DNA from: a virus
Reading direction: 5' to 3' (one strand)
DNA length: 22,025 nucleotides
Virus record (IMG/VR): IMGVR_UViG_3300017991_003495
Span: 1 to 22,025 of that record
Shown here: piece by piece, positions 9,795 to 19,302 of the stretch
Position numbering within the stretch: position 1 is the stretch's first letter
Layout of the letters: the number at the start of each line of letters is the position of its first letter
Made by a program: the position numbers and the translations under genes
The notes under the pieces: generated by a model
The model's input: only the letters and a program-made list of their open reading frames with translations
Database searches by the model: none
Told to the model about the DNA's origin: nothing

Positions 9795-9834
9795 GCGAGC
9801 GCAAACTTTTGGGTAAAAGCTTGCGCTCGCGCTG
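9791..9834. terminator. Long hairpin between tail operon and recombinase (terminator or recombination site)
   Basis: GCGCGAGCGCAA (9793-9804) is perfectly complementary to TTGCGCTCGCGC (9821-9832). After one mismatch, CTTTT pairs with AAAAG, leaving a GGGT loop (9811-9814). It could end transcription of the structural operon, but there is no following T-tract, so a recombinase or repressor site is an alternative. Confidence 0.5.
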
Positions 9835-9868
9835 GGCGCCGGTGCCGGGGGCCGCTAGAATCGAAAGG

Positions 9869-10585
9869 ATGATCGCCAAGGCCATGAGAGGCTGCCGCCC
9901 GCTGAGCGACGAGGAGGTCGAGCAGGTCGCCGGTGCGTTCGCCGGTCCCTGGGCGCTGCGGGACCGCGCCCTGTTCGTGCTCGGCTGCCGGACGGGGTAT
10001 CGCATCACCGAGCTGCTCAGCCTGACGGTCGGCGATCTGCTGGGCCCGGAGCCGGCAACGGCGCGGCCGGTGGGCCCGGAGGCGATCGCCGATCGCGTGA
10101 CCGTGGCCAGACGCCGCATGAAGGCCAAGCGCCAGGGCCGCAGCGTCGTGATCCACCCCCGCGCCCGGCCCCCCCTGGCCGCTTGGCTGGAGGAGCTTCG
10201 CGGCCGCGGCCTGCTCGCCGCCTCGACCCCGGTCTTCTGTTCCCGGAACCGCCGCCGCGCTCCCAAGGCCGCGCCCCGCCTGCCCTTCGCCCCGGACACC
10301 GACGATCCGCCGCCCAGCGCCGAGGCCTCGGCCCCTCCGGACCTCCGCCCTCTGTCGATCGGCCAGGCCTGGCGGATCCTGAAGGCGGCCTTCCGCCGCT
10401 GCGGCGTCTACGGCGCGACGGGCACCCACTCGATGCGCAAGACGTTCGCCAGCCGCGTCTACGGCCGCTCCCGGGACCTGGTGACCACCCAGCGGGCCCT
10501 GGGCCACCGCAACATCGCGTCCACGATGGCCTACCTCTCCGCCGCCCAGGACGACGTCGATCGCGCCATCCTCGGCGAGGATTGA
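9869..10585 (+). CDS. Compact tyrosine recombinase (catalytic domain only)
   Basis: 238 residues from ATG 9869; ATG 9884 (MRGCRPLSDEEV) is an alternative start, since the GAAAGG before 9869 is too close. The tyrosine recombinase set is complete: Arg45 in RTGYRITELLSL, a Lys near 85-87, His187-x-x-Arg190 in GTHSMRKTFA, His213 in ALGHRN and Tyr222 in MAYLS. The N-terminal SAM-like core-binding domain of phage integrases is absent, and a Pro/Ala/Arg-rich insert (about 127-160) interrupts the catalytic fold. It could act in integration control, dimer resolution or excision. It converges with the leftward exported-protein operon, 15 bases apart. Confidence 0.85.
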   Translation: MIAKAMRGCRPLSDEEVEQVAGAFAGPWALRDRALFVLGCRTGYRITELLSLTVGDLLGPEPATARPVGPEAIADRVTVARRRMKAKRQGRSVVIHPRARPPLAAWLEELRGRGLLAASTPVFCSRNRRRAPKAAPRLPFAPDTDDPPPSAEASAPPDLRPLSIGQAWRILKAAFRRCGVYGATGTHSMRKTFASRVYGRSRDLVTTQRALGHRNIASTMAYLSAAQDDVDRAILGED

Positions 10586-11844: not shown

Positions 11845-12786
11845 TCAAGTATCCAGTTCCAGCGCCGTCTGCTCAATCTGCTCGTCGAAGCCGGGCGCCA
11901 GGTGGGCGTAGATCTCGGTCGTCCGGACGTCCGCATGCCCCAGCCAGCGGCCGATCCGCTGGAGGCTCACGCCGGCCTGGGCGGCCCGCGCCGCGTGGGT
12001 GTGCCGAAACAGGTGCCAGCCGCGCCCCGTCGAGCTGCCGGGGAGCTGCCGGAACTTCGGGACCGCGTCCTGGATCGGCCGCAGCGCCCGCCGCCACCAG
12101 TTGCAGTGCCGCGGGCCCTCGACGAACCGCCAGCCACCCCGCCAGGTCCGTCGCGCGGGGAACACCGGACCCAAGTGTCCAGTCAGCGGCCGCTGCTCGG
12201 TCAGGGCGGCGACGGCCGAGCTGGACAGCCAGACCATCCGCGGCCGGCGGCTCTTGGACTTGCGGACCAGCAGCCGGCGCCGCTCGAGCTCGACGTCGGC
12301 CCAGCGCAGGCGGATCAGCTCGCCAAGCCGCAGGCCCGTGGACACCGCCAGCATGACCTCCGGCCAGATGCCCCGGGCCCGCGCGATCCGCAGGACCGTC
12401 GCCAGCTCCTCGTCGGTCAGCCAGCGAGGCGGGCGCCGCTCGGGCACCTTCAGACGCACCCGGCGGCAGGGATTTTCGGACAGGAGACCTTGCCGGCAGA
12501 GCGACTCGCAGAAGCTGCTGATCGCCGAGCGGTGGTTCAGGAGCGTCTTCGGCGATCGCCCATGCCGCGCCAGGTCCGCCAGGTACCGGGTGACCGCCTC
12601 GCTGGTCAGGTCCGCCGGATCGTTGATCCGCCCCGACCAGAGGAACCGTTGGACGATCGCCGCCGCCTCCTTGGCATGTCGCTCTTCCGCCACCAGGACC
12701 ATCGCCTCCCGGTAATCACCGACCATCGTCAGCAGCCCCGCCGCCCCGGCTGCACGGGGCACCCGATGCGCCCGCCAGGCCATCAT
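11845..12786 (-). CDS. int: Tyrosine integrase
   Basis: 313 residues from ATG 12786 with GGAGGTG five bases upstream. The N-terminal SAM-like core-binding domain (about 25-115: DLTSEAVTRYLADLARHGRSPKTLLNHRSAISSFCE) is followed by the catalytic domain with Arg153 (STGLRLGEL), Lys176/178 (KSKSRRPRMVWL), His258-x-x-Arg261 (HLFRHTHA), His284 (WLGHAD) and Tyr293 (TEIYAHL). All catalytic residues are present. A tRNA/tmRNA 3'-end sequence lies 126 bases upstream, as expected for attP next to its integrase. It heads the leftward operon containing the two exported proteins. Full length for a phage integrase, so probably active. Confidence 0.93.
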   Translation of the reverse strand: MMAWRAHRVPRAAGAAGLLTMVGDYREAMVLVAEERHAKEAAAIVQRFLWSGRINDPADLTSEAVTRYLADLARHGRSPKTLLNHRSAISSFCESLCRQGLLSENPCRRVRLKVPERRPPRWLTDEELATVLRIARARGIWPEVMLAVSTGLRLGELIRLRWADVELERRRLLVRKSKSRRPRMVWLSSSAVAALTEQRPLTGHLGPVFPARRTWRGGWRFVEGPRHCNWWRRALRPIQDAVPKFRQLPGSSTGRGWHLFRHTHAARAAQAGVSLQRIGRWLGHADVRTTEIYAHLAPGFDEQIEQTALELDT

Positions 12787-15085: not shown

Positions 15086-15339
15086 TCTCGCAACGCACTG
15101 CCACGCCCACGCGCCGCGAGCGGGCCCGGACGCACCCGCACCGCGGGCCCTCGCTGTTGAACGCCGCCGCCGTCCGGCGCTACGTCCTGGACGTCGCCAG
15201 CCGCACCGGCCGCGGCGACGTGGTGCGCCGCGTCGGCCAGAGCGTCTACGTCGACCTGGACCGGGAGCTCCGCCACCGCATCGGCGAGCTGGTCCATCGC
15301 CACCCCGGCGGCTTCGCAACGCTGGAGGCGGAGGGGTGA
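15082..15339 (+). CDS. Small basic protein, possible DNA-binding (histone-fold-like pattern)
   Basis: 85 residues from ATG 15082 with AAAGGAG at 15069-15075. A basic N-terminal tail (TPTRRERARTHPHRG) leads into LLNAAAVRRYVLDVASRT, a short loop, then VVRRVGQSVYVDLDRELRHRIGELVHRHP. A helix, loop, long helix arrangement with a basic tail is reminiscent of the small bacterial histone-fold or DUF1931-type proteins, but this is a visual resemblance only. The location directly before a DNA methyltransferase fits a DNA-associated function. Confidence 0.6.
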   Translation: MISQRTATPTRRERARTHPHRGPSLLNAAAVRRYVLDVASRTGRGDVVRRVGQSVYVDLDRELRHRIGELVHRHPGGFATLEAEG

Positions 15340-16244
15340 CGGCGCCGCGCACGTTAACGGCGATCGACCTCTGCTGCGGCGCCGGCGGCTGGGCGTGCGC
15401 GGCGCGCGGCCTGCCCATCCGCGTCGTCTGCGCGGTGGACCTCTGGGACGTCTGCTGCCGGACGTACCGGACCAACCACCCGGGCGTCGACGTCCGGTGC
15501 GCCGATCTCCGCGACGCCGGGGTGCGCGAACAGATCGCGACCGAGTTCGCCGGCGTCGACGTGGTGCTCGGCGCGATCCCCTGCGAGTGGCTGAGCGTTC
15601 GCCGGAACGTCAGCGGCGGCGCGAAGGCGACGCCCGAAGCGGAGCGGCGGGCCGAACGCGCGACGCTCCGCGCCGTCCTGAAACTGGTCCGCCAATTGGC
15701 CCCGCGATACTGGTGCCTGGAGGATGTCCTCGGCCTCCGGGCCGAGCTGCCCGCGAGCGTCCGCTCGACCCAGATCGACTCCGGGCACTTTTCCGCCCAA
15801 CGCCGCAAGCGGCTGTACGCGGGCGCGTTCCCGCTGCCGTCGCCGCCCGGCAATCCGGTGGAGAGATTCGGCCAGAAGCTGCGCCCGGGCCCTTACCGGA
15901 TCGGACGCCGCTCGGCCGATCGGCGAGCCGTCCGCGCTCGATCGTTCAGCGCCACCGAGGTCTACAGCGCGGACGTTGAAGACCCGCGCTCGCCCACGAT
16001 CTGCGCGTTCGGCTCGCTGAGGGACTCCGAGCTGGTCCTCCTCGACTCGGGCCTCGCCAACGGACGCCGACAGATGGAGTGGCAGGAGGCCGCGTCGCTG
16101 CAAGGGTTCCCGGAGGACTTCGTGTTCTACGGCTCGCCGAACGATGTGTGGAAGCAGCTCGGCCAGGCGATCCAGATCGACACGGGGCGAGCCATCCTCG
16201 AGGCGATCGTGCAGGACGCGGCCCGGAAGGAGGTGCGCGCATGA
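15336..16244 (+). CDS. C5-cytosine DNA methyltransferase
   Basis: 302 residues from GTG 15336 (GTGA overlap). Motif I (DLCCGAGGW, 11-19) binds S-adenosylmethionine. The catalytic Cys83 is in IPCEWLS (usual PCQ replaced by PCE). Motif VI reads LEDV (129-131 Glu-Asp-Val instead of Glu-Asn-Val), motif VIII is QRRKR (155-159), motif IX is WQEAASLQGFPEDF and motif X is LGQAI. The target-recognition segment (about 165-245) is short. It would methylate phage DNA cytosines, probably to evade host restriction; no cognate endonuclease lies beside it, so it looks like an orphan enzyme. The two motif substitutions are uncommon but the catalytic residues remain. Confidence 0.88.
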   Translation: MTAPRTLTAIDLCCGAGGWACAARGLPIRVVCAVDLWDVCCRTYRTNHPGVDVRCADLRDAGVREQIATEFAGVDVVLGAIPCEWLSVRRNVSGGAKATPEAERRAERATLRAVLKLVRQLAPRYWCLEDVLGLRAELPASVRSTQIDSGHFSAQRRKRLYAGAFPLPSPPGNPVERFGQKLRPGPYRIGRRSADRRAVRARSFSATEVYSADVEDPRSPTICAFGSLRDSELVLLDSGLANGRRQMEWQEAASLQGFPEDFVFYGSPNDVWKQLGQAIQIDTGRAILEAIVQDAARKEVRA

Positions 16245-16873: not shown

Positions 16874-17831
16874 ACTGACGCCCTACGCACCGCTGCCGCA
16901 TTCGGTCCTCCGCAGGACGGACCTCAGCGACGCGGCGAAGCTGGTCTTCGCCGCACTGGCTGACCTTCGTCCCGATGCGGACGGCCTGGTGGCGGTGTCT
17001 GTCGGGCGTCTCTGCGAGATGGTCCCCAAGGAGCGGCGGGCCATCCAGCGGCTGTTGCGCGTGCTCGAGCGGCGGAACCTGATCGAGGGCGTCCGCCGCC
17101 CGGGCCGCCGCACACGCTACCGCCTGCTGCCCGGCGCCGCAAGCGCCTCGCCGGCCGCGCCGCAGGCGGAGGGGGGCGTCGTTGACGACGCCCCCCAGGG
17201 GGCGTCGCGCACGACGCAGGGGGGGCGTCGCGCACGACGCGGGGGGGGCGTCGCGCACGACGCCCCCGCTCGCGTGACTGCCTTTTCCACTGCCTCTCCC
17301 ACTCCCCGCGGCGTCCCGCCGCTGGTGTGGGAGTCTGCGCTGACGCGGCTCCGGACGGCCTACGCCGAGGCCTTCGGCGACGGCACGCCCATGCCCAATC
17401 GCTGGCGGCGTCTGCTGGGTGAGCAACTGGCCGCCGACGGCCAGGCGATCGTGGCGCACCTTACGGCCGACGCACTGCGACGGGGCCTGGCGATGGCCAA
17501 CGCCGCCAAGCCCAAGCCCCGCCCCTACGGCTTCGGTTGGGTGGTGCTGGCCATCCAGGAGCAGCAGATCATCGGCAACGCCCAGCGGGCGGCCCAACAG
17601 CGACAGCGGCAAGAGGCCCGGGCGGCGACCGCGCCGCCGGAAGACATCGAGGCGCCGGGAGCCGAGGAGCTCCGCGAGCAGGTGGCGTGGTTCGCCGATC
17701 TGCCGACCGACCGGCAAGCCCCGTTCCGCGAGCGGGCGGAGGCGGAAGCCTTCGTCACCAACCGCCCGGACGTCATCGAGATGTTCGCCGCCCAGTTGGC
17801 GTGGGCGGCCGAAGGGGACAGCCATGCCTGA
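16857..17831 (+). CDS. Helix-turn-helix replication-initiator-like protein (lambda O-type organisation)
   Basis: 324 residues from ATG 16857, with AAGGA eight bases upstream; a TTG at 16833 is less likely. The N-terminal winged helix domain (about 10-90: LPHSVLRRTDLSDAAKLVFAALAD, LCEMVPKERRAIQRLLRVLERRNLIEGVRR) resembles phage replication proteins. A low-complexity linker (about 100-137) is encoded by four GC-rich dyad repeats. The C-terminal half (LRTAYAEAFGDGTPMPNRWRRLLGEQLAADG, PYGFGWVVLAIQEQQI) is helical. The order of binding domain, repeat-encoded linker and C-terminal domain mirrors lambda O, whose gene contains its own origin. A plain transcription regulator is the alternative. Confidence 0.72.
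   Translation: MPTRPELTPYAPLPHSVLRRTDLSDAAKLVFAALADLRPDADGLVAVSVGRLCEMVPKERRAIQRLLRVLERRNLIEGVRRPGRRTRYRLLPGAASASPAAPQAEGGVVDDAPQGASRTTQGGRRARRGGGVAHDAPARVTAFSTASPTPRGVPPLVWESALTRLRTAYAEAFGDGTPMPNRWRRLLGEQLAADGQAIVAHLTADALRRGLAMANAAKPKPRPYGFGWVVLAIQEQQIIGNAQRAAQQRQRQEARAATAPPEDIEAPGAEELREQVAWFADLPTDRQAPFRERAEAEAFVTNRPDVIEMFAAQLAWAAEGDSHA
17171..17264. repeat. Four dyad iterons inside the initiator gene, candidate replication origin
   Basis: Cores GGCGTCG-NNNN-CGACGC begin at 17175, 17201, 17224 and 17247 (spacing 26, 23, 23). Three have the spacer CGCA, one has TTGA. The first extends to perfect 11-bp arms (17171-17181 with 17186-17196). G-runs of five to eight bases precede each core. A pyrimidine-rich, less GC-rich stretch follows (17275-17310). 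Confidence 0.75.
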
Positions 17832-18270
17832 GCCCTTGACCCCCGAGCAGGCAACACCGGAGGAGGCCTTTGCGATCCTCGGGGCCCTGGCCGCCTGGGC
17901 CGACGTGCACGACCCGGCCGCGGGCTACGCGAGCACCCGCGGCAGCCTCGGCCTGCTGATCGAGCGGGCCCGGGCCGCCGTGGCCGCCCGGCGCCCGCTG
18001 GCGGACCGATTCGTCGTGAAGATTGTGGATGCCGGGTCGCGCTGCCCCTACTTCGCGGGGATGCACGTGTGGACCGATGACCTCGGCAAGGCGAGTCGGC
18101 ACACGTGGGACAGCGCCCGCGCCCTCGCTGCCCAGCTCACCCAGGACCGCCCCGGCTACAACTACCAGCCCGTCCTGGTCGGCATGCGCGCCGGGGTCCT
18201 CGAGGAAGTGCCCGCGCAGGATCCCCCGCAGCAGCGACAAGAGGAGGAGCCATGCTCCCCGGCGTCGTGA
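17824..18270 (+). CDS. Hypothetical phage protein
   Basis: 148 residues from ATG 17824, overlapping the initiator stop by 8 bases. The N-terminal part is helical (PEEAFAILGALAAWADVHDP, RGSLGLLIERARAAVAARRPLADR), the middle has FVVKIVDAGSRCPYFAGMHVWTDD and the tail is Gln/Glu-rich. No motif recognised. A replication accessory role, such as a lambda P-like partner, is possible only by position; it lacks a visible ATPase motif. Confidence 0.55.
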   Translation: MPEPLTPEQATPEEAFAILGALAAWADVHDPAAGYASTRGSLGLLIERARAAVAARRPLADRFVVKIVDAGSRCPYFAGMHVWTDDLGKASRHTWDSARALAAQLTQDRPGYNYQPVLVGMRAGVLEEVPAQDPPQQRQEEEPCSPAS

Positions 18271-18465: not shown

Positions 18466-19302
18466 ATGATCCGCAACGCGACACCAACCGGCAGGGGCAA
18501 CAGCGACGCCGTCCGGCGCGACGCCGACGCGATCGCCGCCCGGTACCTGGCCGGGGAGATCTCCATCAAGGCTCTGATGCGCGGGTACCGCGTGGGCTAC
18601 GAGGTCATCATGGACGTCCTGCGCCCGCGGACGACGGCCGAGCAGCGGACAGCGATCAACGACGCTCGCCGCAGGTCCAACGCCGGCCCAGGCAGGTTTT
18701 GCCCCGGGCAGGTCCCCTGGAACAAGGGGATCTCGTGCTGCCGCCACTCGCCGGGGACGGAGTTCCGGCCGGGCCAGATACGAGGCGCCGCGGCCAGGCA
18801 GTACCGGGCGATCGGCACGCTCAGCATCCGCACATCGCACGGCACCCCGTGCCGGTACATCAAGGTCCGCGAGGGCGGCCGGCCGCAGGATCGCTGCGTG
18901 CCCTACGCCCGCTGGCTCTGGGAGCAGGAGCACGGCCCGATCGCTCGGGGCTGGCTGGTCATCCACATCGACGGCGATTCGCTGAACGACGATCTCGGCA
19001 ACCTGCGCCTCGTCGATCGTCGGACGCACCTGGCCGTCCAGAAGGCCCGCGACCCGGAGATGGAGGTCCGCCGCCGATCGGCGTCCAGCGCCGCTCAGCG
19101 CCTGCGCCACCAACGCAACCTCGAGCGAAAGGAGCGCGAAGGGCCGGCGCGGCAGGCGCTCGTCGGGCCGTCGCTGATCCGCTGGCAGTGCCCCGGCTGC
19201 GGGCACCACGCCGACGGAAAGCGGCCGCCGGCGCGCTGCCCCAAGTGCGGCGGCTCAAGCTTCGAGCGCCTGAAGCTGCGGAAGACGGAGGGACAACCGT
19301 GA
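18466..19302 (+). CDS. HNH endonuclease with N-terminal HTH and C-terminal zinc ribbon
   Basis: 278 residues from ATG 18466, one base after the previous stop. Residues about 15-53 look like a helix-turn-helix (ADAIAARYLAGEISIKALMRGYRVGYEVIMDVL). The segment FCPGQVPWNKG (78-88) and TEFRPGQ repeat a 'F..GQ..wNkG' motif seen next to HNH domains of phage endonucleases. The HNH core lies at about 155-182 (HGPIARGWLVIHIDGDSLNDDLGNLRLV; His167, Asp169, Asn174, Asn179). A rubredoxin-like ribbon (Cys242, 245, 258, 261) ends the protein. It may be a free-standing homing-type nuclease. The stop overlaps the next GTG. Confidence 0.82.
   Translation: MIRNATPTGRGNSDAVRRDADAIAARYLAGEISIKALMRGYRVGYEVIMDVLRPRTTAEQRTAINDARRRSNAGPGRFCPGQVPWNKGISCCRHSPGTEFRPGQIRGAAARQYRAIGTLSIRTSHGTPCRYIKVREGGRPQDRCVPYARWLWEQEHGPIARGWLVIHIDGDSLNDDLGNLRLVDRRTHLAVQKARDPEMEVRRRSASSAAQRLRHQRNLERKEREGPARQALVGPSLIRWQCPGCGHHADGKRPPARCPKCGGSSFERLKLRKTEGQP

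Follow-up and report, generated by a model that had tools for sequence, protein, structure and literature searches.

Iterons of a probable replication origin inside the initiator gene of a very GC-rich uncultured phage

Four dyads in the middle of a replication initiator gene are probably the iterons of a phage replication origin, which lies inside the gene of its own initiator and would be bound by the winged helix of this protein. The window, i.e., the whole viral stretch that was analysed, comprises 22,025 bases with a G+C content of 65-76% (1-kb windows). The array is best read as a self-contained origin to which the winged helix would bind, and we infer that binding, melting, recruitment and the start of replication take place there.

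The dyad array and its initiator gene

On the + strand of the record there were four exact matches to GGCGTCGNNNNCGACGC, i.e., GGCGTCG-N4-CGACGC, starting at positions 17175, 17201, 17224, and 17247, with spacings of 26, 23, and 23 bp between the starts. Four such copies 23-26 bp apart in the middle of a gene had been described in a first-pass annotation of the sequence, and this description was confirmed. The outer dyads, 1 and 4, were longer than given there, with 11-bp and 10-bp arms, respectively. Dyads 2-4 are nearly identical over approximately 22 bp, while dyad 1 has a different spacer, TTGA, and the step of 26 bp between dyads 1 and 2 is about half a helical turn out of phase with the other steps. 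The coordinates of all features are collected in Table 1.

Table 1. Features of the initiator gene and of the dyad array within it; positions refer to the window.
Feature	Position	Strand	Description
Replication initiator gene, 324 aa	16857..17831	+	ATG start; Pfam HTH_36, PHROG_270, PHROG_345
Winged-helix DNA-binding domain, residues 15-90	16899..17126	+	AlphaFold2 pLDDT ~70-85, H-H-H-H-E-E
Predicted disordered linker, residues 94-153	17136..17315	+	pLDDT <50; encoded by the array plus its 3' flank
Dyad 1	17171..17196 (core match 17175-17191)	.	GGGGGGCGTCG-TTGA-CGACGCCCCCC; perfect arms 11 bp
Dyad 2	17201..17217	.	GGCGTCG-CGCA-CGACGC
Dyad 3	17224..17240	.	GGCGTCG-CGCA-CGACGC
Dyad 4	17244..17267 (core match 17247-17263)	.	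GGGGGCGTCG-CGCA-CGACGCCCCC; perfect arms 10 bp
3' flank of the array, pyrimidine-rich; candidate weak unwinding element	17266..17315	.	30% A+T
C-terminal helical domain, residues 158-324	17328..17828	+	phmmer/alignment to L018; AlphaFold2 pLDDT 76

Chance as the origin of the array was excluded by three shuffle tests. With up to two mismatches allowed, the dyad was matched 37 times in the record against 7.1 +/- 3.2 times in dinucleotide shuffles, none of 100 shuffles reaching 37, and the best match elsewhere in the record, at 1809, had one mismatch. When the gene itself was shuffled, 300 times by synonymous codons and 300 times by dinucleotides, no shuffle attained the chain score of the array, which has four copies with 57 matched bases. 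By a looser measure of repetition, counting 14-mers or 16-mers with two mismatches, the gene could not be separated from its synonymous shuffles. Such a word count fails because the DNA is so GC-rich, and the claim against chance rests on the chain measure, which was used instead.

The strongest argument obtainable from the record by itself comes from the reading frame. Spacings of 26, 23, and 23 bp are not multiples of three, so the copies fall in different codon phases (0, 2, 1, and 0, respectively) and encode different peptides, namely GVVDDA, ASRTT, RRARR, and GVAHDA. As the dyads occupy three codon phases, the repetition is at the level of DNA and not of the peptide. The dyads encode approximately residues 107-136, entirely within the predicted linker. 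The earlier description of a linker encoded by repeats holds for the location of the dyads, with the correction that the copies encode different peptides.

The initiator gene overlaps both the preceding ORF, which extends to 16873, and the following ORF, which begins at 17824, leaving almost no non-coding DNA in the operon at this place. A gene for a C5-cytosine DNA methyltransferase (15336-16244) is located just upstream in the same gene run, and methylation of the CG-rich iterons might serve as a control of replication. Elsewhere in the record, two tyrosine integrase genes, 9809-10585 (+) and 11848-12786 (-), lie on opposite strands within 3 kb, and the record may hold two elements, the end of a phage, or a junction with host DNA. 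The record is a fragment, and those of its ORFs that were searched, the downstream ORF 17824-18270 included, yielded no helicase loader (P), helicase or primase.

The only family returned by the Pfam scan of the 324-aa protein was HTH_36 (E=9.3e-6, above the cut-off). In the PHROGs search, the protein matched PHROG_270, "replication initiation protein", with E=3.2e-8, PHROG_345, "O-like", with E=0.0033, and a further initiation family with E=0.02. The match of the N-terminal profile is that of the winged-helix phage replication initiators (PHROG_270/345, O-like). An N-terminal winged helix had been suggested from the sequence, and the AlphaFold2 model of residues 15-90 agrees with the HTH_36 and PHROG_270 matches on this point. 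For the C-terminal domain, of which the model was built from two sequences, no PDB fold match was obtained. The fold matches of the winged helix in the PDB were weak (E ~0.15-0.25) and included MarR/ArsR folds as well as the plasmid Rep-DNA complexes 5kbj, 4pql, and 4pta.

Since repressors of the MarR/ArsR type make up most of these matches, and operators typically are dyads, the dyads might be operator or copy-control sites, by which the initiator or another regulator represses the operon or titrates the initiator, with replication starting elsewhere. We regard such a role as unlikely. The array lies approximately 320-410 nt inside the ORF and no promoter-like site was found near it; homologous arrays occupy this part of the linker in proteins that initiate replication, and the equivalent sites in lambda and pSK41 are the origin. 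One site could also double as origin and control element.

Repeats in the linkers of other initiators

Close homologues of the initiator were not found in viral contigs, GTDB genomes, phage or plasmid records, so there were no close relatives in which conservation of the dyads could be compared. A scan of 392 genomes from the phylum of a Planctomycetota contig, our guess for the host, gave weak matches only. The single two-domain homologue detected, L018:4254-5399, was 26% identical, and the alignment covered its winged helix as well as its C-terminal domain (summed phmmer E=6.5e-9). Its linker contains six unrelated dyads, approximately ACCRTACCG-N5-CGGTACGGT, spaced 33, 33, 44, 21, and 33 bp. 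A comparison of homologous genes had been proposed in the first-pass annotation, and in L018 the linker position of the dyads was kept and their sequence changed; dyads at the same place with another sequence support the origin reading. Taken over the related initiators, the proposed test, in which position and spacing stay while the sequence changes, came out in favour of the annotation. A search for a further relative of the L018 protein returned only its own contig. When the paired dyad itself was searched for, other viral sequences gave one match, within a gene resembling a small terminase, and 11 genome matches had no related initiator adjoining.

A panel of 15 initiators was put together in which the repeats played no part in the choice. 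It consists of N-terminal PHROG_270 matches in viral records that had been collected on account of another gene (DUF5131 or tape measure protein), plus three phages found via protein similarity to L018. Linker arrays of at least three spaced copies were present in nine of the 15 panel initiators, against 47 of the 511 ORFs that served as controls (p=3e-6), and chains with non-codon spacing in seven of 15 and 12 of 511, respectively (p=1e-7), both p-values being rough because L018 was both bait and panel member and no phylogenetic weighting was applied. The remaining six of the 15 had no array of three or more copies. In Rhodococcus phage Tonitrus gp63 the four copies in the linker are spaced 24/23/22 bp, in the initiator of a Parageobacillus phage the spacing is 21/22/22, and in L099 it is 56/22/42. 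The initiator of L100 has 23-bp repeats spaced 23/23 with no clear dyad. In L094:1766-1842 the linker holds two copies of a long palindrome, one perfect over 32 bp (TCCCGGGGGTTTCTGC/GCAGAAACCCCCGGGA) and the other nearly so, the half-sites being 23-25 bp apart. The contig of L094 (G001) also encodes the sole tape-measure relative found for this phage. Six GGGGGTCA dyads spaced 46/57/45/22/21 were found at L091:1784-2008, beginning within the final codons of a winged-helix gene and continuing beyond its stop; the gene is short (128 aa), lacks a C-terminal domain, and possibly represents an initiator split from its second domain. Among the control ORFs, one stood out solely through its repeats, at L048:4441-4565, where the linker holds four CGTCACGTGTGACG dyads (23/34/53), and this ORF proved to be a replication initiator itself.

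The repeat spacings in the panel cluster near 21-24, 33, 42-46, and 56-57 bp, as would be expected if the proteins stack along the same side of the helix. A period of 11.5 bp gave the best fit, which exceeds the 10.5 bp of B-DNA and sits at the upper edge of the null range, and the 26-bp step of the present record is off phase; helical phasing of the spacings is for these reasons graded as suggestive only.

Two further repeat arrays were noted in passing. In a Nocardioidaceae genome, L104:1503-1601 carries tandem GGGCGTCGCCCGCGACGCC approximately 27 bp apart, for which no link to an initiator was found as far as tested. Eight copies of ATGACTTGACACGAC, mostly in 20-bp steps, lie at L086:6898-7079, immediately beyond an ORF of 325 aa, and could be an origin or a centromere-like site.

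Two other explanations of the dyads are to be weighed against these arrays. As copies 2-4 closely resemble each other and conservation was seen in no close relative, one could suspect that a GC-rich palindrome without function was recently duplicated in tandem at this site. Such a duplication is hardly credible in view of the unequal spacing, the TTGA spacer of copy 1, the three codon phases passed without a stop, and the independent initiators that carry arrays at the same place far above the control ORFs. The repeats may also act as RNA or single-strand hairpins, for translation control, as a transcription pause or as a single-strand priming site, and the transcript does fold far better than its shuffles (z=-5.6). 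Good folding is expected of any dyad array, however, and the Rfam search gave no match, neither a terminator nor a terminator-like T-run was found, the half-sites of related phages agree in spacing and not in hairpin sequence or strength, and the L100 repeats lack a clear dyad altogether; we consider a role as hairpins very unlikely. The G-runs at 17171, 17198, 17219, and 17241 had been suggested to form quadruplexes. This idea is weak, because the runs are separated by 15-21 nt, loops too long for a canonical G-quadruplex, and stand in competition with strong hairpins.

The flanks of the array and a possible course of initiation

The A+T content of the 3' flank was 30%, that of the 5' flank 14%, and that of the whole gene 26%. 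The 3' flank was less stable than 84% of the 50-bp windows of the gene, the 5' flank less stable than only 2%. An AT-rich unwinding region could not be clearly recognised next to the array, the 3' flank having just 30% A+T, and equally AT-rich stretches occur in the gene. In all 11 repeat-bearing genes compared (this phage, lambda, and nine others) the 50 bp on the 3' side of the array were less stable than the 50 bp on the 5' side (Wilcoxon p=0.001), while five array-less panel members gave no consistent pattern of flank stability near the same place. In lambda, where the A+T contents in this comparison were 74% and 52%, the less stable 3' side is the AT-rich region required for unwinding (PMC7466680). 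The GC skew of the 22-kb fragment had its minimum at 19122 and not at the repeats (17.2 kb), and changed little between 13.5 and 19.5 kb.

If lambda O and pSK41 Rep are taken as guides, each dyad is probably occupied by one dimer of the winged-helix domain. Side by side, the four dimers would form a compact nucleoprotein complex resembling the lambda O-some, which might destabilise the less stable DNA directly 3' of the array. The C-terminal domain might then recruit the helicase or primase machinery of the host, or of the phage. As the linker is under little constraint at the protein level, its sequence can follow whatever DNA the origin requires.

Relation to lambda O and other in-gene origins

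The same program applied to lambda O as a positive control found four copies with a spacing of 20/24/23, coincident with the annotated iterons of ori. The two genes are alike in having four iterons mid-gene, at nt 348-435 of gene O and at nt 317-409 of the initiator gene here, with comparable steps (26/23/23 in the latter), and in the order of N-terminal DNA-binding domain, linker and C-terminal domain, with less stable DNA 3' of the array. The plan of lambda, with dyads encoding the linker, was recognised in the first-pass annotation and is upheld by the four dyads approximately 23 bp apart between the winged helix and the C-terminal domain. The differences are that the iteron sequence is unrelated and the C-terminal domain is another, and that here no strong AT-rich tract and no P gene were found. 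Lambda O matches Phage_rep_O (PF04492) at 5.7e-36, whereas the 324-aa initiator gave no match to this family, and hhalign of the initiator against the lambda O profile was not significant (E=0.4). Membership in the lambda O family was rejected on these grounds, HTH_36 being the only Pfam domain. Of the suggested convergent or very divergent lambda-type origin, the anatomy of lambda ori was retained and membership in the lambda O family was not, and we judge convergence as less likely. Many winged-helix initiators of one broad family carry repeats inside the gene, and a divergent branch of this family is more likely than convergence. The array would act like a lambda-type origin, most likely as a divergent branch of the winged-helix initiators with the origin in the linker.

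The layout is proven in pSK41 Rep of Staphylococcus (RepA_N), the winged helix of which binds four Rep boxes inside rep, and the central domain is an origin-encoded linker, dispensable as protein (PMC5703833). The initiator studied here shares with RepA_N the layout only, i.e., origin repeats within the gene that encode the linker, with 5kbj and 4pta among the weak fold matches of its winged helix. Membership in RepA_N was rejected, as the Pfam scan gave HTH_36 and no PF06970. The C-terminal domain of RepA_N is DnaD-like, and the two-sequence model of the one here gave no match in the PDB. The O-like initiators Pseudomonas LESphi3 O, Rhodococcus Tonitrus gp63, and Pseudomonas MD8 gp56 have a winged helix in the same PHROG cluster. 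Linker arrays are shared by LESphi3 O (seven copies) and Tonitrus gp63, and repeats have been reported in MD8 gp56 (PMC8508860); in all three the iterons are unrelated in sequence to those described here and the C-terminal domains are not alike. The origin of repABC plasmids also lies within the coding sequence of the initiator, RepC, but has an A+T-rich region and no iterons (PMC3155836).

The array adds a further case to a known arrangement and is not a new kind of system, and the layout is common in diverse phages, single cases of the plan having been published for lambda, Stx phages, MD8, and pSK41. What may be novel is the generality and sequence-independence of the rule across the panel. 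We put forward, with chances that we judge somewhat short of even, a general and fast-evolving rule for winged-helix phage initiators, by which the linker DNA is the origin and the iteron sequence turns over completely, while three features persist, namely the position after the winged helix, the spacing of approximately 22 bp and a 3' flank that melts easily. The arrangement of lambda extends to initiators without detectable direct sequence relation to lambda O, and a likely replication origin is located in the very GC-rich genome of an uncultured phage. The panel suggests a practical rule for finding origins, which is to look in the linker after the winged helix for repeats at a spacing of approximately 22 bp that ignore codon phase. 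If the rule is true, origins would be readable straight from the genomes of uncultured phages, and the extremely GC-rich array presented here would be one extreme.
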